A DNA stretch of 22,245 bases from a virus: positions 1 through 22,245 of the IMG/VR virus record IMGVR_UViG_3300034198_010497. The stretch is one strand, 5' to 3'. This document shows, piece after piece, positions 4,587 to 18,394 of this stretch. Position 1 is the stretch's first letter; the number at the start of each line of letters is the position of its first letter. The notes below the pieces were generated by a model. That model did not search any database. It was not told the DNA's origin and saw only the letters and a program-made list of their open reading frames with translations. The translations under genes were made by a program, and so were the position numbers.

Positions 4587-5186
4587 TTATCCGCTCACGC
4601 GCTGGGCCGCAACGATCTGAGCGAGACGTTCGTCGAAGTCGAGGTCGACCTTGACCGCAGTCTCCACCGTGGTCGTCGAGGTCTTCGGCACCTCGACGAG
4701 GCCGCACCGGTCGAGGACCAGCTCGGCCGCCTTGAGCCGGTCCTTCGGCGTCACGGTGTCGTCGTTCATCAGGTCGACGAGCGTGGAGAGCGCCGCCTCC
4801 GCCGCGTCTTCGAGCTCCTGGCCGAGTGTCTTCCGGCGCAGGTCGCGACCCTTGTCGATGCCCGCCTTCATGGCAGGATCCTCGGCCCACTGCCACACGA
4901 TGTGGGGCCGGAGCTTCAGCCGGCGCGCCACGTCGCGCACGGTGTACCCGGCAGCGAGGAGCTGGACCGCCACAGCGCGCGTCTCCGGGTCGTTGGAGAA
5001 GCGCGTCTGCTCCGCCAGCATCTCGACCACTTCCTGCTCGGCGGTCGGCGCCACGCGCGTCACCTTGGCGAGTTGGAGCGGGCCGGGAGCGGACGGCGCG
5101 ACGACGTGGTCGGGCTTCGCCGCGTCCGGCAGGTCGACGGCGTGGGCGGTCGGGGCGGTCTGCGTAGGCTTCGGTTCGCGTGGCAT
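4587..5186 (-). CDS. putative phage terminase small subunit (HTH protein, 199 aa)
   Basis: After a Pro/Ala-rich disordered N-terminus (residues 1-50) there is a helix-turn-helix (AAGYTVRDVARRLKLRPHIV, about residues 78-97). It is followed by a helical region containing DRLKAAELVLDRCGLVE, which resembles small terminase subunits and related HTH proteins that bind the packaging site. The family role would be DNA recognition for the packaging motor. No large terminase is in the window, so it could also be another HTH protein. The gene is last in the leftward block and has its own motif-bearing promoter. There is no Shine-Dalgarno before its ATG, so its mRNA may be leaderless. Confidence 0.5.
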   Translation of the reverse strand: MPREPKPTQTAPTAHAVDLPDAAKPDHVVAPSAPGPLQLAKVTRVAPTAEQEVVEMLAEQTRFSNDPETRAVAVQLLAAGYTVRDVARRLKLRPHIVWQWAEDPAMKAGIDKGRDLRRKTLGQELEDAAEAALSTLVDLMNDDTVTPKDRLKAAELVLDRCGLVEVPKTSTTTVETAVKVDLDFDERLAQIVAAQRVSG

Positions 5187-5192
5187 GCGTGA

Positions 5193-5212
5193 AGCATAAC
5201 CGCAGCGGCAAG
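5193..5212 (-). promoter_or_regulatory. promoter/operator motif upstream of the terminase-like gene
   Basis: Read on the minus strand, CTTGCCGCTGCGGTTATG (5212-5195) matches the shared motif of the other leftward promoters. TATGCT (5198-5193) could serve as a -10, with just six bases to the ATG at 5186, which would make a leaderless transcript. The -35 at that spacing is poor. Confidence 0.45.
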
Positions 5213-5254
5213 GGAACGGGAGGACGAAGATACCGGTGGACGCCCTCCCGTTCC
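5213..5254 (-). terminator. hairpin terminator after the 5265-5789 gene
   Basis: A perfect 11-base-pair stem (GGAACGGGAGG at 5213-5223 and its complement at 5244-5254) surrounds a 20-base loop. It lies 10 bases after the stop of the upstream leftward gene and directly before the promoter motif at 5195-5212. There is no U-run, so it may be a weak or Rho-assisted stop, or an RNA stability hairpin. Confidence 0.55.
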
Positions 5255-5264
5255 TCGTGTATCC

Positions 5265-5789
5265 TTACGGAGCCGGAGGCTGCGCGCTTGGCTTCTTGTG
5301 CGCGTCCCGCCGGGCCTTCTGCGCCACCGCACGCTTGATGTGGTGGATGCAGAACGTCCCGCGCGCGTTCGCGATCCGGTACTGACCCGTCCGGCTGCAC
5401 CGGATGCCGCCCTTCGGGTCGATCAGGTACGAGCATCCGTAGCGCACGGGCTGCCCCTTGTGGTCGAGGCGCTCGCGCCGCTCCACGTTGGCCGGCAGCG
5501 TGTCGATGCGGTTGACCACTTCCTCCGACGTGGTGATCGTGAGCCGGCGGAGCCGACGGCAGAGCCGCTTCGCCCCGTCGTCGGGGAGCCGGTCGAGGAG
5601 GGCGCACGCCGCCAGGACGTGACGCACGCACACCTCTCCCTTGATCAGGGCGAGGCCGGACAGGATCGCCAGCGCATCGCCCTCGGAGCGCTGCCAGAAC
5701 AGGCAATGCTCCGCCGTGGCCTTCGAGATCGGCACCTCGTACCAGTCGGGCAGCTGCTCGTAGATGCGGGGCTGGACGCGCTTACCCAT
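5265..5789 (-). CDS. protein of unknown function with Cys/His cluster (174 aa)
   Basis: The ATG at 5789 overlaps the end of the DUF927 helicase gene by eight bases. The first 115 residues are helical and include GDALAILSGLALIKGEVCVR. The C-terminal third has spaced Cys and His residues (YGCSYLIDP, IRCSRTGQ, TFCIHHIKRA) that could hold a zinc ion, followed by a basic, Pro-rich tail (HKKPSAQPPAP). The basic tail and zinc-like cluster hint at nucleic-acid binding; I do not recognise the family. Coupling to the helicase suggests a replication-linked job. Confidence 0.6.
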   Translation of the reverse strand: MGKRVQPRIYEQLPDWYEVPISKATAEHCLFWQRSEGDALAILSGLALIKGEVCVRHVLAACALLDRLPDDGAKRLCRRLRRLTITTSEEVVNRIDTLPANVERRERLDHKGQPVRYGCSYLIDPKGGIRCSRTGQYRIANARGTFCIHHIKRAVAQKARRDAHKKPSAQPPAP

Positions 5790-7986
5790 CGTCGCCCTCC
5801 GCGTTCACGCCGGCGTAGTCGGCACGGTCCATCTCGTCCACGGCGACCTGCGAGTCGACCGCGGTCCTGCTGATCTGGAACACGCGCATCGGCGCCCCGT
5901 GGATGCGGTGGATGGCGGCCCTGCTCTTGATCACCTTGTTGTGGCTGCGCCGGTCGGACAGCACGATCCAGTTGCGCTCCGCCCATCGCTCGATGATCTC
6001 CTCCGCCTGGAAGCCGAGCGGTTCGAGGATCTCGCGCAGCGTCGTCGGCAGCACCGAGATGCAGCCCCAGTCGTCGTCGGACTCCCACGCACCGGCCCAC
6101 CCACGCACCGGGATGATCGGCGCCCCGCTGTTCGTCTTCTCGTGCCGGCCCCAGAACCGGGACTGGTTGGCGGTACACCACGACACGACCTCGATGAGCG
6201 CGACGTGCGGCCGGTCCTTCTCGGACTCGATCCGGTTCACGCACTCCAGGGCGTAGGCCATCGCGTCCTCTTCGGGGAGAGGCACGCCGAGCTCGTGGTG
6301 CAGGATCGAGGACATGAGATGCAGCGTGGCGAGGTTGCCCGCATGCCGGCGCCCGATGGCCGTGCGCGCGACCGCGGCGTAGCCGTCCCGCGCCTCGCGC
6401 CACACGCGCCGCAGTTCGTCATGCTGGTCGGCGATGGACACGAGGTAGTGGATCACCTTGCGGCCGAGGTGGCCGTAGTTCTGATGCACGAGGCGCGTCA
6501 GCTCCTCCGCCGCCGGCCCACCCGTGCCGGTGTCGTTGCCCATCGGCTTGCCCGTGACGGACAGCACGCGCGCACGGGTGCCTCCATCCTGCGAGAACGA
6601 CGTGGCCGCGCTCTCGCCCGACGTGAGCATGATCGTGCGCCACGACACCGTCTGCCGGGTGCCGCCGATGGACCCGCGTCCGCGACCCTGCCCGTTGGCG
6701 AAGTCGTAGATGACGTCGCGCACCTGCTTCTGATCCTTCGCCCGCTTCGTCTCGTCGAGGATGATCGGGAGGTTGCAGAGGAACCCGGACAGCCGCTCGA
6801 TGTAGACGCGGGTGGAGTCCCACGAGTACATGGCCGTCGGCGCGTTGTCGCCGGGGCGTCCCCACACGGAGGCGCCCACGCGCATGGCCGTCGTCTTCCC
6901 GCTCGACGTCTCGCCGTTGAAGTCCACGATGAACGAGGGCGCGCCGAGGATCTCCAGCAGCGGGGCCGAGGCCGAGGCGTAGAGCGCGAGCCACATCGGG
7001 ATGAACGGCTTCATCACCTCCATCGCCTCGATCCAATCCTCCCACGTACCGGACGGCTTCCAGCCTTCGAGCACGGGCTCCATGCCCTCCGGCGGGGAGA
7101 GCTCGACGCCGCCGTCCTCCGGCCCCTGCTGCGTCGTGTAGAACGTCTCCGGCAGGAGGAAGCCCTGCACCCCGCCCTGCGCGATCCAGCCCATGCGGCT
7201 CGCGGCCTGGTGCGCGGCGAAGCGGTGCATGTTCTCCGCCTCGAACTCAGCCAGCCATTCAACGAGCATGCCCGCCGTGTTGCTGGTGACAGGCACCTCG
7301 ATGTCGGCGAGGCTGATCAGCTTCTGGCTGTTCATCACCATGCCACGCTCCACCGGGCGCATCGTCCAGCCGGCCGGCGTGCGCCACATGAGCATGCGCT
7401 TCGCCGTCCCGGTCAGCACGTCGTGCGAGCGGCCCACGAGGAAGATCGGGGCCGTCGCAACACGTTGGCTGTTCGTCCCGCCGTCGGCGGCGGCCGACAA
7501 CTTGAACACGCCGGTCGGGTCGATGAGGTAGCCGCGCGGCACCTTCATCATGTCGAGCATGCCCGGCTCGATCAGCGTCGGAGGGGGCGCGCCGGCACCG
7601 AGCGCGACACCCAGCGACAGGAGCGACGGGTCGCGCGTCACGCCGATGGCCCGGTCGAGGCTGGCCTTCCGCTTCTCAATGACGAGACGCTTGAGCGCGT
7701 TGCGGAGGGCGCGCGTGCGCGTGGCCTGTCCGGGCAGCATCTCCACGACCGCGAGCATCGAGGACACCATGCTCTCGTCGGACATCCATGCGTCCGCGAT
7801 GGCGCTGAGCGCCTCCGGCCGTTGGAGCGCGGCCCACGCGGCGAGGTGGTTGCTCTTCTCGCCGGACTGCACCTGGTTCTGCAACGTGCGGAGGAGGTCG
7901 AGCCCCTGCGACACGGTGTCCGGCCTGTCGTCTTCGAGGATGGGGCCGTCGCCAGCCACCGGCTCGTCGTTCTCTTCGGTGTTCAT
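5782..7986 (-). CDS. DUF927-type ATPase, putative replicative helicase (734 aa)
   Basis: The C-terminal half carries the DUF927 signature: Walker A NGETSSGKTTAMRVGASVWG (G358 to K364-T365), Walker B LPIILDE (D411-E412), then VIYDFANGQGRGRGS and a TIMLTSGES stretch. DUF927 proteins are hexameric-helicase-like ATPases of mobile elements and phages, often fused to or paired with primases. The first 300 residues are unrecognised and carry no clear primase motif (no CHC2 zinc finger, no TOPRIM). The ATG at 7986 overlaps the preceding HTH gene's stop (ATGA). A fork helicase role is inferred from the family and from the neighbouring HTH and polymerase genes. Confidence 0.8.
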   Translation of the reverse strand: MNTEENDEPVAGDGPILEDDRPDTVSQGLDLLRTLQNQVQSGEKSNHLAAWAALQRPEALSAIADAWMSDESMVSSMLAVVEMLPGQATRTRALRNALKRLVIEKRKASLDRAIGVTRDPSLLSLGVALGAGAPPPTLIEPGMLDMMKVPRGYLIDPTGVFKLSAAADGGTNSQRVATAPIFLVGRSHDVLTGTAKRMLMWRTPAGWTMRPVERGMVMNSQKLISLADIEVPVTSNTAGMLVEWLAEFEAENMHRFAAHQAASRMGWIAQGGVQGFLLPETFYTTQQGPEDGGVELSPPEGMEPVLEGWKPSGTWEDWIEAMEVMKPFIPMWLALYASASAPLLEILGAPSFIVDFNGETSSGKTTAMRVGASVWGRPGDNAPTAMYSWDSTRVYIERLSGFLCNLPIILDETKRAKDQKQVRDVIYDFANGQGRGRGSIGGTRQTVSWRTIMLTSGESAATSFSQDGGTRARVLSVTGKPMGNDTGTGGPAAEELTRLVHQNYGHLGRKVIHYLVSIADQHDELRRVWREARDGYAAVARTAIGRRHAGNLATLHLMSSILHHELGVPLPEEDAMAYALECVNRIESEKDRPHVALIEVVSWCTANQSRFWGRHEKTNSGAPIIPVRGWAGAWESDDDWGCISVLPTTLREILEPLGFQAEEIIERWAERNWIVLSDRRSHNKVIKSRAAIHRIHGAPMRVFQISRTAVDSQVAVDEMDRADYAGVNAEGDDG

Positions 7987-12177: not shown

Positions 12178-12251
12178 CGGGACACCGTGTTGCGGCGGGC
12201 GAGCTCGCGCTGCAAGTACCAGAGCGCCTTCTTGAGATTACGCCTATACAT
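12174..12251 (-). CDS. tiny ORF resembling a DUF3310 C-terminal end (25 aa)
   Basis: The ATG at 12251 overlaps the HNH stop by eight bases, and the TGA overlaps the next ATG. The product MYRRNLKKALWYLQRELARR... shares LKKAxWYxxRxL with the end of the DUF3310 protein encoded on the other side of the HNH gene (DLKKARWYIDRAL). At the DNA level CTCAAGAAGGCGCTCTGGTAC matches the DUF3310 gene at 18 of 21 bases. It is either a short real gene or, more likely, a leftover 3' end separated from DUF3310 by the HNH insertion. Confidence 0.45.
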   Translation of the reverse strand: MYRRNLKKALWYLQRELARRNTVSR

Positions 12252-12912
12252 TTTCGTACCTCTGTATGATCGTCTTTGCCCACTCAAGAACGTCGGCCAC
12301 ACGCTGACCTTTCGGCTGCGCCGTAGTCCAGAGTTCCAGGTTTTCCGGTCGGTTGTCATCTTTGACGCCGTTGATGTGATGGACGTTCTCGTCAGGGTGC
12401 AGCGCGCGTCCGAGACGGTTCGACATCACAAGCCTGTGCTCCATGATGTAGCCCTGCTTGGTCGCGTTCGGATGACCCTTGGCGTAGACGATGACGTACC
12501 CCTTCGAGTCTTTTCGCCTCCCGCCACGCCAGTTTTTCGCGTTTTCGCCGTTTCGCGGCAAGCACTGTCCGCACGAGCGGACGCTTCCGCTGCGAAGGTT
12601 ACTGCTCAAGACAGTGTGTTCGTGGCCACAAGCACAACGACAGAGCCACCTTGCCCCGCCGCTTTGATGTGGCTCGCGCTCGCAGCGCATAAGCACCGAC
12701 AGCAGTCCGAAAGTCAGCCCTGCGAGGTCCATGAAGTTGGGATCAAGGCAGCCGCAAGACTTCGTGTTTCCACTATTGAGATTGCCTCCGGTGACGATCC
12801 TCTCGTTCCCGCAAGAACATCGGCATAGCCACCAAGACTTGCCGCCAGCACGGGGAACTTCGCGGATCACAGTAAGCCGTCCGTAGACGCGACCAGTTCT
12901 ATCTATCTTCAT
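12244..12912 (-). CDS. free-standing HNH endonuclease, probable homing type (222 aa)
   Basis: Two zinc-binding repeats lie at the N-terminus (LCRCSCGNERIVTGGNLNSG...SCGC and LCRCACGHEHTVLSSNLRSG...SCGQC), a pattern seen in phage HNH proteins. The catalytic HNH core follows: MEHRLVMSNRLGRALHPDE, then VHHINGVKDDNRPENLE. Such enzymes nick or cut DNA and spread their own gene. The stretch is less GC-rich than neighbouring genes, suggesting transfer. ATG 12912 is chosen because MKIDRTGRVYGRLTVI is the usual start of the first repeat; it overlaps the DUF3310 stop by 14 bases. Confidence 0.8.
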   Translation of the reverse strand: MKIDRTGRVYGRLTVIREVPRAGGKSWWLCRCSCGNERIVTGGNLNSGNTKSCGCLDPNFMDLAGLTFGLLSVLMRCEREPHQSGGARWLCRCACGHEHTVLSSNLRSGSVRSCGQCLPRNGENAKNWRGGRRKDSKGYVIVYAKGHPNATKQGYIMEHRLVMSNRLGRALHPDENVHHINGVKDDNRPENLELWTTAQPKGQRVADVLEWAKTIIQRYENV

Positions 12913-13450
12913 CACCTGAAGTCTCCGCGACCGATAGCGCACGGTCGATGTACCAGCGGGCTTTCTTGAGGTCTTCTGCGGCGGAGCCCTTCTTTCCCGC
13001 ACGCGCGATATATTTTATCGCATTTCCGAGATGAAAAGCAACCCCCCTCGGCCAACCTTTGGTCCAGTCCTCGATCACCGTGATGGCTTCGATCTTTCCG
13101 ACGTTGTAGTGGCGCGGATGATCGACCGTGTTAGGTTCGGGTCGAACGGGGTCTACAATAGCGAGAGGCGCGGCAGAGCGGGCCGCCTGCAAACTTTCAA
13201 GGCGGGACGCCATGTACCTGCGGTTGCGGTCGGCCAAAGCGTACATCACGTCGGTGTGCTCGTCGCAGTAGCGACCCCCTTCGAGGGCCGTACCCGTGCA
13301 GCCGCCCGCCCACTTGCAGCCCTTGGGGGCGGCCTTCTCGCACAGTTCGCGCCAGCCCTTGTGCCACCGACAGGTATCGGCGTAGTTGGCACAGGTCCGC
13401 TCTTCGTCGCCATGCACGTATACACGCGCGCCACACTTCTCTCTGCTCAT
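12899..13450 (-). CDS. DUF3310 protein with N-terminal Cys cluster (183 aa)
   Basis: The C-terminal part matches DUF3310: DHPRHYNVGKIEAITVIEDW, then HLGNAIKYIARAGKKG and DLKKARWYIDRAL. The domain is common in phage genomes, sometimes annotated as a nucleotide kinase without good proof. The N-terminal 85 residues add Cys/His residues (CGARVYVHGDEERTCANYAD, CRWHKGWRELC, CKWAGGC, CDEH) that may bind zinc. ATG 13450 follows GGAGAATCAGC. The last residues (SVAETSGDEDR) lie next to the HNH gene and may have been replaced on its insertion. Confidence 0.75.
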   Translation of the reverse strand: MSREKCGARVYVHGDEERTCANYADTCRWHKGWRELCEKAAPKGCKWAGGCTGTALEGGRYCDEHTDVMYALADRNRRYMASRLESLQAARSAAPLAIVDPVRPEPNTVDHPRHYNVGKIEAITVIEDWTKGWPRGVAFHLGNAIKYIARAGKKGSAAEDLKKARWYIDRALSVAETSGDEDR

Positions 13451-14626: not shown

Positions 14627-17600
14627 CTACGCCTCCTTCAAGTTGCGCCCGACGCTCGCCTCGGCCGTGAGCGCGACCTCCCATCCGGGGATGCGGACGG
14701 TCATGCACTCCTCGACCTGCTTCCGCATTCGCTCCAGTTCAGGCGGCAGCGCCTCGCCCTTCACCGGCTTCCATCCCGCGAGGCCCGGCGGCGCCTCCAC
14801 CTCGACCGCGACGGAGTCGTGACACTGGTGGATAAGGCCCGTCCGGCGTCCGAGATCCCACGGAAACGCATGGATCAGCGCCTGCTCCGCAAGCCGCATG
14901 ATGCTCGTCTCGGCGGCGAGGACGGGGAAGTTGACCACCTCGTTCTTCTTGCCGTCGGAGAGGCTGCCGGATCGCCGGCCCAGCACCGGCTCCTCCATGT
15001 AGCCCTGATGCCGGTAGAGCAGGAGCATCTCCTCCCACGCCTGCATCCACTCCGGCTCCGTCTTCAGCCACGTCTCGTGGAAGTGACGGACCTCCTTCGA
15101 GGTCATGTTGAGGTAGGGCATATCGCCGCCGTCCGACTCGGTCGACGTAAGTACTTGCCAGACCGTCATCGGATCGGCCCAGTAGATGCAGTTGTGGACG
15201 AAGATGCCTGAGGCCAAGGCGAAGTTGTGGGCCTCGTGATCGACGCCGATGTCCCAGACCTCGTGCTCGCCGGCCGGCACGACGCTCTCGACGACGTGGT
15301 TGGGGAGCGTGTCGGTCTGCCCCTTCCAGTACGCCGGGATGCCGCGCGACTTCCGGTAGTAGACGACGGCCTGCTCGGTCACGCCTGCGCGCTTCGCCAC
15401 GTCACGGTCGTGCTCGTGGCCGACGAACTCGACGAATGGGTCGAGCTTCGACTTGAAGCGTTTTCCCTTGTTCGTGGTCTTTCGCAGCTTGCTGTTGCGG
15501 CGCATCGCCTCTGACGCAGCTTGCCGCCACTTCTCCGAGCGCTTTCGCCCCTCGACGAGGGCGGTGTTCATCTCGTCGTAGCCCGCGGCCCACATGGCGC
15601 GTGATGCCTCACCGTAGGCGGCGGCACGCTCTGGCGTCCAGTGATGGCGGCTGTGCTCGCTGGCGGTCATGCCTTCGAGGTTGTCGGGATGGTTGTTGCC
15701 CTTGTCGCCGTCCTTGTGATGGACATGCTCGTGGCCCGGCAGCACCCAGCGATGCTCCTGCACGCGGCTCTTGTTGTCGTTGAACTGCTCGATGAGACGG
15801 TAGCCGGTCTTCGGGTGCGTCCACCGCTTGAACGGCATGAGCCGGTCGCCGGGTCGCAGATCTTGCAGCTCACGCCACGAGCCGTCGCGCAGCATGAACT
15901 TGTGGTCGGGCGTGAACGTCTCCGTCCATCGCTTTCGGCCATCACGCATCGTGATGGTCATGCACGCCCGCACACCGACCTTTGTCTTCTGGATGATACG
16001 AGCGGGAACGTACTGTGCCCCGTCCCAGCACCACGTCCAGTCCTGACCAGGCTCGATGTCAGCGATGCGCTTGTGGCCTTCGGGGCCGAGAGTGACGACG
16101 AGTGTATCTTCCACCGCGCAAGCATAGCGGAACGTCTTCATAATGTCACGCATCGCCTTCGCCATGCCGCCTGCGGGTTTCTTGTAGAGGCTGAACCCGT
16201 CCGGCCCCCATCCGTCCGCGTTCTTGAACTTGTCGCCGAAGACGTTGTAGGACAGCGTGTTGTGTGGATCCTTGCCTTCGGTGAAGCACTCCAGCAACAG
16301 CGGGATGCGCCAGTAGTTGGCCGTGATGCGGAGGTGCGCTTGGTCGAGGTCGGCCCCCACGAGGATGTGGCCCGGCTCCGCGGCGAAGAGCGTCTTGAGT
16401 TTGCCCTGTCCCTTCCTTGAGCCGATGTTCTGGAGGTTCGGGCCGCTCGACGAGAGCCGCCCCGGAGCCGTGACGTGCGCGTTCCACGTCGAGCGGATGC
16501 GCCCGTCCGGGTGCCAGATGAGCCCCTTGTTCGGATCATGCGCGGCGAGGTTCAGCGGCAGCAGCACGGTGCCGAGGATCTTGTTCTTCTCCCGGCGGTA
16601 CAGCCGGAGCTCGCGGATGAACGCCTCCTGGTCGGGCGAGAGGCGGCCTCCGGCGAGGTGGCCGCGAAGCACCTTGTCCCCCGTGCCGGGCATGCCCGAC
16701 GCCGTGTAGAAGTCGCGTGCCTCCATCTGCGGCGGGATGCCGAGCTTCCACGTCTCGTAGAGCAGGTCGCGGATCTGGTCGGCGCTGCCGGGCTTCACAC
16801 CCACAACCTCGTCGCCGTCGTCGTTGGAGCCCGCGCTCTTGAGGTCGAGCTTCCCGAGGCCCACGGCGAAGGACAGTTCCGCGAGCCGCTTCTCCCGCTT
16901 CGCGACGGACGCGCGCGTGTCCATCTCCATCTTCCACCGCGCCTCCTGATCGACGTACACGCCGATCTTGTGGAGGTTCACGCACATGTCCTGCGTGGCG
17001 TGGTCGATCTCGTGGAGATCCCACCGACGCTGCTCCCAGCCCACGGGGCGCAGCGCCTCCGGCAGGTCACGGAACGCACCGGCCTCCTCCGCCGCATCCA
17101 TCAACGGCACGACGATGCGCGCGTTCACGGTGCTGTCGGTGCAGTTGTAGGCGAGGCGGTCCCAATCGTCGACCTTGCCGTGCGCGAGGCTCTCGCCCTT
17201 CTCCGTCGTCTCCCAGCGGTCCACGTCGGTGAGCACGGAGCCGACGACCTTCAGCCCCTTCGGAAGTTCAGGCGCCCTGAACCTTGCTGCGAACAGCGTG
17301 TCGATGATGGGCATCGGCGTGACGCCGAGCCACTGCTCGACGACCTGTCGGTCGTAGGAGCCGGCGTTGTGCCCCACCTTGACCTTGGTCGGGTCCGACA
17401 GGAAGCGGCGCAGGATGTCGAGGATCCGCACCTCGTCATCGAACGAGTAGAAGCGCGTGTAGCCGTCGCCGCTCAGGATGTTGAGGCCCATGACGCCGGC
17501 GCGACGCGCCTCGACCTGGCCCTCGCGGAGCGCCCTGCCCTCGGTGTTGAGGTCCGGGTGCGCGATGGCGATGGAGCGCACCTTGCACACCATCGGCTCG

Positions 17601-18394
17601 ATGCCGTCCGTCTCAAGGTCGTAGGCCCAGAACGGCATGTCCTGCGCGAGGAACGCTTCAAGCTCGTCAGGCGTCGGGTTGAAGGACCGCACGGGGTCTG
17701 TCCAGCGCAACTGCCCCGCAAACCAGCGCATCGCCTTGCCGAGGTCCGCATGCACCGTCGCGCGCCACCCCGGAGCCTTCTGCACGAAGCCGGGATGGAA
17801 CGTCGGGAACACCTTCCGCACCGCGCCTTCGGGCACGACGTTGGCGAGCGGCGTCTCCATCAGCGCGCCCCAGTTCTCGTCGACCCACACCGGGCCGCCG
17901 CGCAGCGCGAAGATGCTCTGCGTCTTGGCCGTCAGCGCGTTGGCCGCCGTGCGCCCTAGCGCGAGGATGTTCTCGTAGTCTTCTGCCTCCTTGAGTAGAC
18001 GAGGACGGCAGCACGCGATAGGGTCCGGGAGGGCCGGGAGCCCTGTAGCAAGACGACGACGGTTCTCCTTGTCGAGCGCCTTGGTCATCTTCTCCCATGC
18101 GTTCGGCTGCGTGCCTGCGTTGCACGCGACGACGTGGGTCAGGTCGATGTCGGCGCGCTTGCGGCCCGCAGCGAGGAGCGCGAGGTTCCACTCCTGCCCG
18201 CTGCGGCCGGACAACGGCCGTCCGTTGTTGGTGTCCTCGACGTGCGGGGACTCGGCAACGGCGAGCACGATGGCGCCCTCGTGGCGCTCCGGCGGGCATG
18301 GCTGCCAGTAGCCGTCGCGGAACGCGCCCTTCGGGCCGAGCGGGCACTCGTCGCAACGCGCGCCGTGCTTGCGCGGATCATACGGCATCGTCAT
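14627..18394 (-). CDS. polA: DNA polymerase I with UDG-like domain, 3'-5' exonuclease and intein (1255 aa precursor)
   Basis: Domains in order: a family-4-like uracil-DNA glycosylase region (about 10-225; C14/C17, AESPH, GRPLSGRSGQ, LGRTAANAL, TFHP with H200); a DEDD exonuclease (D259/E261 in YDLETDG, N343/D348 in GHNAGSYD, Y416/D420 in YNCTD); then PolA palm and fingers (GRLSSSGPNLQNI, motif A GADLDQAHLRI with D682, motif B KTFRYA/CIYW, motif C HDS at 1192-1194). An intein (759-1068) splits motif B; the spliced enzyme would be 945 aa. The motif-B selector residue is Tyr (Y757). ATG 18394 is used; 18388 is possible. UDG-polymerase fusion is also known, as I recall, for SPO1-type polymerases. 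It would copy the phage genome. Confidence 0.9.
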   Translation of the reverse strand: MTMPYDPRKHGARCDECPLGPKGAFRDGYWQPCPPERHEGAIVLAVAESPHVEDTNNGRPLSGRSGQEWNLALLAAGRKRADIDLTHVVACNAGTQPNAWEKMTKALDKENRRRLATGLPALPDPIACCRPRLLKEAEDYENILALGRTAANALTAKTQSIFALRGGPVWVDENWGALMETPLANVVPEGAVRKVFPTFHPGFVQKAPGWRATVHADLGKAMRWFAGQLRWTDPVRSFNPTPDELEAFLAQDMPFWAYDLETDGIEPMVCKVRSIAIAHPDLNTEGRALREGQVEARRAGVMGLNILSGDGYTRFYSFDDEVRILDILRRFLSDPTKVKVGHNAGSYDRQVVEQWLGVTPMPIIDTLFAARFRAPELPKGLKVVGSVLTDVDRWETTEKGESLAHGKVDDWDRLAYNCTDSTVNARIVVPLMDAAEEAGAFRDLPEALRPVGWEQRRWDLHEIDHATQDMCVNLHKIGVYVDQEARWKMEMDTRASVAKREKRLAELSFAVGLGKLDLKSAGSNDDGDEVVGVKPGSADQIRDLLYETWKLGIPPQMEARDFYTASGMPGTGDKVLRGHLAGGRLSPDQEAFIRELRLYRREKNKILGTVLLPLNLAAHDPNKGLIWHPDGRIRSTWNAHVTAPGRLSSSGPNLQNIGSRKGQGKLKTLFAAEPGHILVGADLDQAHLRITANYWRIPLLLECFTEGKDPHNTLSYNVFGDKFKNADGWGPDGFSLYKKPAGGMAKAMRDIMKTFRYACAVEDTLVVTLGPEGHKRIADIEPGQDWTWCWDGAQYVPARIIQKTKVGVRACMTITMRDGRKRWTETFTPDHKFMLRDGSWRELQDLRPGDRLMPFKRWTHPKTGYRLIEQFNDNKSRVQEHRWVLPGHEHVHHKDGDKGNNHPDNLEGMTASEHSRHHWTPERAAAYGEASRAMWAAGYDEMNTALVEGRKRSEKWRQAASEAMRRNSKLRKTTNKGKRFKSKLDPFVEFVGHEHDRDVAKRAGVTEQAVVYYRKSRGIPAYWKGQTDTLPNHVVESVVPAGEHEVWDIGVDHEAHNFALASGIFVHNCIYWADPMTVWQVLTSTESDGGDMPYLNMTSKEVRHFHETWLKTEPEWMQAWEEMLLLYRHQGYMEEPVLGRRSGSLSDGKKNEVVNFPVLAAETSIMRLAEQALIHAFPWDLGRRTGLIHQCHDSVAVEVEAPPGLAGWKPVKGEALPPELERMRKQVEECMTVRIPGWEVALTAEASVGRNLKEA
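15191..16120 (-). mobile_element. HNH-bearing intein in DNA polymerase motif B (310 aa)
   Basis: It begins with Cys (CAVEDTLVV), has the block-B motif FTPDHKF (T70, H73 of the intein), and ends HN (EVWDIGVDHEAHNF, then ASGIFVHN), followed by Cys as the +1 extein residue (CIYW). All self-splicing residues are therefore present. Between the splicing blocks lies an HNH endonuclease (HRWVLPGHEHVHHKDGDKGN, then NHPDNLE, about intein residues 123-160) and a basic HTH-like segment (RDVAKRAGVTEQAVVYYRKS). It is likely an active, homing intein. Removing it restores an uninterrupted motif B. Confidence 0.9.

Follow-up and report, generated by a model that had tools for sequence, protein, structure and literature searches.

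An HNH intein in motif B of a phage family A DNA polymerase, one residue beyond Tyr762

The stretch of DNA analysed here, referred to as the window, covers positions 1 to 22,245 of the IMG/VR virus record IMGVR_UViG_3300034198_010497 (22,245 nucleotides). On its minus strand lies a gene for a family A DNA polymerase (PolA) that is interrupted by an in-frame insert of 310 codons. The features of the locus are the following, with the basis of each assignment in brackets (polymerase residues in motif B in E. coli numbering; L010 is another carrier of the intein):

14627..18388, minus strand: DNA polymerase precursor, 1253 aa, interrupted by the intein (ORF; Pfam; start from orthologues)
15191..16120, minus strand: intein with HNH endonuclease, 310 aa (junctions from intein-free orthologues; TIGR01443; PF14890 in the L010 copy)
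16118..16120, minus strand: Cys1 codon, N-terminal splicing nucleophile (invariant in eight related inteins)
15902..15913, minus strand: block B, T70-P-D-H73 (invariant in eight related inteins)
15647..15742, minus strand: HNH_3 endonuclease domain, intein residues 127-158 (PF13392, 36.2 bits against a cut-off of 24.8)
15191..15196, minus strand: C-terminal His309-Asn310 of the intein (invariant in eight related inteins)
15188..15190, minus strand: C-extein Cys+1, E. coli 764 (Ser or Ala in empty alleles)
16121..16150, minus strand: motif B, N-side half with R754, K758, Y762 and A763 (alignments; O helix 741-758 in the model)
15179..15190, minus strand: motif B, C-side half with C764, I765, Y766 and W767 (alignments)
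16334-16336: His at the steric-gate position, in motif A DLDQAHLR (equivalent of Klenow Glu710)

The gene starts at window position 18388, where its orthologues begin with M-x-YDPR, and this start gives a precursor of 1253 residues and a spliced protein of 943. The original prediction had expected a spliced product of about 945 residues, a figure counted from an ATG two codons upstream; likewise, the tyrosine that had been numbered Y757 does correspond to E. coli 762, but it is residue 755 when the start is placed at 18388. In the precursor, a UDG-like N-terminal domain is followed by a 3'-5' exonuclease and a family A polymerase domain, with Pfam scores of 30.9 bits for UDG and 85.2 bits for DNA_pol_A, and of 23.0 bits for the exonuclease, slightly below its cut-off of 23.6. 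The UDG-like domain fused to the exonuclease and polymerase contains the cysteines C12, C15, C89 and C126/127, which could be ligands of an iron-sulfur cluster. As for the membership of family A, the AlphaFold2 model of L002, an intein-free orthologue, has a Klenow-like fold matching the Klenow, Bst and Taq fragments (Z 26-29, and 28-29 for Klenow and Bst), and the equivalents of R754, K758, Y766, D705 and D882 are all present in the window polymerase. The steric-gate Glu at 710, usual but not defining for the family, is a His throughout the window clade, to which L041 with 52% identity belongs. This Glu is not universal in viral PolA, since a survey of 79 viral PolA ORFs gave Glu in 46, Asp in 18 and His in 15.

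The insert spans 930 nt, free of stops and in frame with the polymerase, and it begins with CAVEDTLVV and ends with SGIFVHN, followed by the extein Cys; its flanks are KAMRDIMKTFRYA on the N side and CIYWADP on the C side. The intein had been proposed to occupy 15191-16120, directly after KTFRYA and before CIYW, and these limits are exact, with relatives reading across the site. Nor is the junction a reading artefact, since related contigs are continuous there (KTFRYA-SIYWADP in L002, KTFRYA-AAYAADP in L004-L007). The eight related inteins aligned, among them that of the Rhodobacter phage RcKickapoo and five bacterial ones of the RtcB type, show no variation at Cys1, Thr6, block B TPDH or His309-Asn310. 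The splicing residues originally reported as intact (Cys1, the HN end, Cys+1) are thus found, and so is the HNH endonuclease, whose domain exceeds its cut-off in the window and also passes HNH_3 in the L010 copy, where the motif is conserved. In terms of curated profiles, the intein C-terminal region (TIGR01443) scores 23.8 bits in the window against a cut-off of 15.6, and PF14890 (Intein_splicing) scores 42.0 bits against 35.8 in the L010 copy, the window copy having no reported match to it. As regards the HINT fold, a DnaE-type intein was matched weakly among PDB profiles (E = 0.008), and an AlphaFold2 model of the intein, built from only two sequences, was discarded at a mean pLDDT of 36.6. 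Since removal of the insert restores an uninterrupted homologue and C1, TxxH, HN and Cys+1 are all in place, the insert is, judging from its sequence, an intein of class 1 type (Cys1...His-Asn/Cys+1). Its bacterial homologues include RtcB inteins and apparent gyrase B inteins, both named by their flanks; the RtcB inteins of Calothrix, Chlorogloea and Acidobacteria are the closest full-length bacterial relatives, alike in block order and splicing residues, and differ in being ~30% identical and in their host protein.

Phage family A polymerase genes are known to harbour HNH-bearing group I introns, which occupy sites 674, 676 and 881 (PMC3428280), and an insert of this kind, as in SPO1-like phages, has to be weighed here. 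All 310 codons are nevertheless open in frame, with intein motifs at both ends and a Cys at +1, so that an intron is next to impossible. The introns of SPO1, Bastille, Pf-WMP3 and phiL7 are instead a parallel to the intein, in that they too are mobile, bear HNH enzymes and sit in conserved motifs of family A polymerases (PMC3428280, PMC2814812), but they are removed as RNA and their sites lie outside motif B.

An HMM alignment to the Klenow fragment fixed motifs A and C and stopped short of motif B, which was therefore placed by a multiple alignment with two distant phage polymerases, where the equivalents of R754, K758 and Y766 do not vary, a 15-member alignment and the survey of 79 viral ORFs (the 762/763 letters of its three intein-bearing rows, which arise from misalignment, were left out). 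In family alignments K758 is invariant and R754 and Y766 are nearly so, and position 758 is Lys in all 79 distinct viral PolA ORFs covering motif B. Counted from this invariant Lys, the Tyr is 762 and the junction falls between 763 and 764, so that all the alignments anchored on it agree with the insertion point claimed from the start, one residue past Tyr762. In the AlphaFold2 model of L002 (mean pLDDT 84.6), a helix spans residues 741-758 and the junction falls at 756/757, which brings the site near the C-terminal end of the O helix. According to this model, the intein splits the O helix near that end, as had been anticipated when the insert was assigned to the nucleotide-binding fingers helix. 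Could the polymerase work with the insert in place, as a non-splicing in-frame domain? With all splicing residues intact and the O helix interrupted between Tyr762 and Tyr766, this is hardly credible, and from the position of the insert the activity of the polymerase is likely to be strictly dependent on splicing.

In IMG/VR, the polymerase intein is carried by L003, L010 and L011, and motif B is free of it in L002, L004-L007, L018-L022, L026, L027 and L029. The polymerase gene of the L003 record (70,497 bases) is practically identical to that of the window, and the nearest empty allele is that of L002, with extein DNA ~96% identical and KTFRYA-SIYW uninterrupted. Such relatives bear on the idea that splicing is a control switch of the polymerase (e.g., a redox switch based on the two catalytic cysteines) and that the intein is retained for that purpose. 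Conditional splicing does exist in other inteins, including disulfide control in a Pyrococcus polymerase intein (PMC5874633), but close relatives do without the intein, which is hence not required, and a role as a switch is very unlikely.

In a core tree of the extein, built from the gene without its fingers segment, each carrier is the partner of an empty relative (L003 of L002, L010 of L029). A single clade of these two carriers is rejected there (AU p = 0.0002), and at least two changes are needed. The trees would fit both a gain in the window lineage and a loss in L002, and loss through recombination with an empty allele would fit the data too. Around the junction, from -170 to +70 nt, the window and L002 differ at 11.1% of positions and at 3.5% elsewhere, a cluster that is not unique, since another segment of the gene is equally divergent (28 against 26 mismatches); in most pairs of empty alleles, the motif B region is less divergent than the gene average. 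L003 and L010 also have near-site extein residues in common (SYN, KPAGG, RDI, Cys), unlike the empty Ser alleles compared. A second peak of divergence between the window and L002, spanning the site of an intein in the Exo II motif of L026, was considered as a homing trace and rejected, the region being variable in several other pairs.

The window and L010 inteins are 89% identical in protein, nuclease included, and with a dN/dS of ~0.10 (dN 0.063, dS 0.62, NG86) the intein is under purifying selection. That the element is mobile had been suggested from the intact splicing residues and nuclease; the ~96% identical empty allele, the carriers that do not form a clade, the linked flank differences and the purifying selection now speak for it as well, and together would fit a homing element that drags flanking sequence along. 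Somewhat doubtful, in comparison, is the alternative without active homing, in which the intein still splices but has a dead or idle HNH nuclease, is passed on by vertical descent and disappears through recombination with empty alleles. The synonymous divergence between the window and L010 is similar for intein and extein (0.62 and 0.73-0.97, respectively), which argues against a recent transfer between the two and agrees with an idle nuclease, as does the fact that gain and loss are not separable by tree counts. Against it stand the residues of the HNH catalytic motif, intact and conserved in both copies, and the degree to which the whole intein, including the nuclease, has been preserved.

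All in all, the best joint explanation, with a probability of roughly 0.93, is an HNH intein in motif B of a phage PolA that would both splice and home. The polymerase and the intein would be translated as a single chain, in which Cys1 would begin an acyl shift and the N-extein would be passed to Cys+1 at position 764; cyclisation of Asn310 would then free the intein and leave a ligated polymerase of 943 residues with an intact O helix. When a relative with an empty polymerase allele infects the same cell, that allele would be cleaved by the HNH domain and then repaired from the occupied gene, and the intein would be copied into it with some flanking extein, which would supply the required Cys+1.

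The gene itself appears in more than one version around this site. Codons ~681-840 exist as two divergent forms, xIYW and AAYA, named after the residues following the junction: the xIYW form reads Ser-Ile-Tyr-Trp when empty and Cys-Ile-Tyr-Trp when occupied, and the AAYA form, with Ala at +1, is intein-free in 5/5 distinct sequences in the tree. The core tree rejects AAYA as a single clade (AU p about 1e-81) and the fingers data reject the core groupings (p about 1e-57 and 1e-9), p values that are overstated, as the groups were named after the trees had been seen, although the log-likelihood differences between fingers and core topologies (56 to 223) remain large. The simplest account is that recombination has swapped the fingers segment between gene backbones. 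A narrow co-conversion tract was discarded as the cause of the contrast between the two forms, which covers ~160 codons. Ala at +1 is unable to act as a splicing nucleophile, and the AAYA allele should for that reason not tolerate the motif B intein unless it were co-converted. There is a precedent in the mcm gene of Haloferax, where proline alleles have been argued to resist the MCM-d intein unless co-converted, and where, as in AAYA, a +1 residue unfit for splicing marks the unoccupied alleles (Pro there, Ala here) (PMC10643990). The Haloferax resistance has experimental support, whereas that of AAYA is read from sequence only. It is a speculative and rather unlikely extension that homing pressure has shaped the polymerase, with AAYA, through its Ala at +1 and its altered target DNA, as an intein-resistant active site spreading between phage genomes by recombination and a selfish element driving swaps of the catalytic helix between two working versions.

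This is not the only intein in these genes, and others were found by scanning related polymerases. The viral family A polymerase of L058 (IMGVR_UViG_3300020045_012038) has one at the same 763/764 junction (KVFCHA|C...GN|TNYIG), but of another type (CITGDHEVLTPEGW), with no HNH match, a GN end and Thr at +1, and with relatives in mycobacteriophage primases; that of L079 sits at 758/759 of motif B. Motif B is accordingly a repeatedly invaded target, with different inteins at the two sites. Proteus phage RS8pmA and Pseudomonas phage PA28 have inteins like that of L079, but these were set aside, since the ORF that holds them is a neighbour of the polymerase gene and distinct from it. Elsewhere in the protein, the Exo II motif of L026 is split at 6030-7142 by a distinct intein that bears a LAGLIDADG_2 domain (GHN|C...KN|CGYYD), motif B of this polymerase being empty, and L043 and L044 have a ~270-residue intein in the UDG motif (GKPF|C...VVHN|CGASG) of a 29% identical polymerase. 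The RcKickapoo intein (OP009274), a related HNH intein with an HN end, is also in a phage family A polymerase (38.7% identity in the first 162 residues and 30% along the full alignment), but it lies in the TGR-S/NPNGQN motif (near 669-670) and has Ser at +1. Two degenerate DNA patterns for other 763/764 inteins gave 0 matches and 10 matches (0 in a polymerase) in the viral collection, nulls that do not show rarity, since only some codon choices and intein types were covered and L058 is undetectable by them.

Some neighbouring genes have similar elements. In the phage of L026, an HNH intein of 275 aa occupies the Walker A of a neighbouring SNF2-type helicase (L206, 3186-4010; CG|C...HN|SGKT), and a portion of a similar one stands at the beginning of L004. 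In the window, a free-standing HNH endonuclease is encoded at 12244-13002 (minus strand), past the polymerase gene by 1.6 kb. It has a 64% identical counterpart close to the AAYA-type, empty polymerase of L004, whereas the loci of most other relatives gave none, and it may thus be mobile or a competing endonuclease. In L024, the polymerase ORF (5001-7487) runs out of register right after motif B (MTVWQV, then unrelated residues), which is a frameshift or an assembly error.

As to the lifestyle of the phage, Tyr762 is associated with virulent phages, and virome polymerases with this residue often adjoin RNR and a Gp4-like helicase (PMC6302109, PMC13228545). Searches of five related records, which may be incomplete, gave no match to a tyrosine or serine recombinase (integrase, resolvase), which agrees with a virulent life; there was no match to the RNR large subunit or to Terminase_6N either. 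The neighbouring replication gene in the window encodes a primase-helicase of the DUF927/Cch type. The link between Tyr762 and lytic phages that had been put forward is thus sustained by the literature and by the recombinase result, but the RNR that often goes with it was not found in these records, and a lytic lifestyle is plausible but weakly supported.

It is established that inteins prefer conserved sites and active sites (PMC2814812, PMC5050341, PMC5874633), and PolA is among their listed hosts (PMC5874633), so the window intein itself is of a known kind. What seems to be new is the exact PolA site, its repeated use and a natural trio of alleles (with the intein, without it, and apparently closed to it): the open papers searched gave no account of an intein at motif B of PolA. 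As the intein splits motif B, surveys that class phages by residue 762 of PolA can misread or drop such genes. Beyond that, the set of alleles offers a matched panel for measuring what splicing costs a phage polymerase and makes the intein-driven evolution of invaded active-site motifs directly testable.
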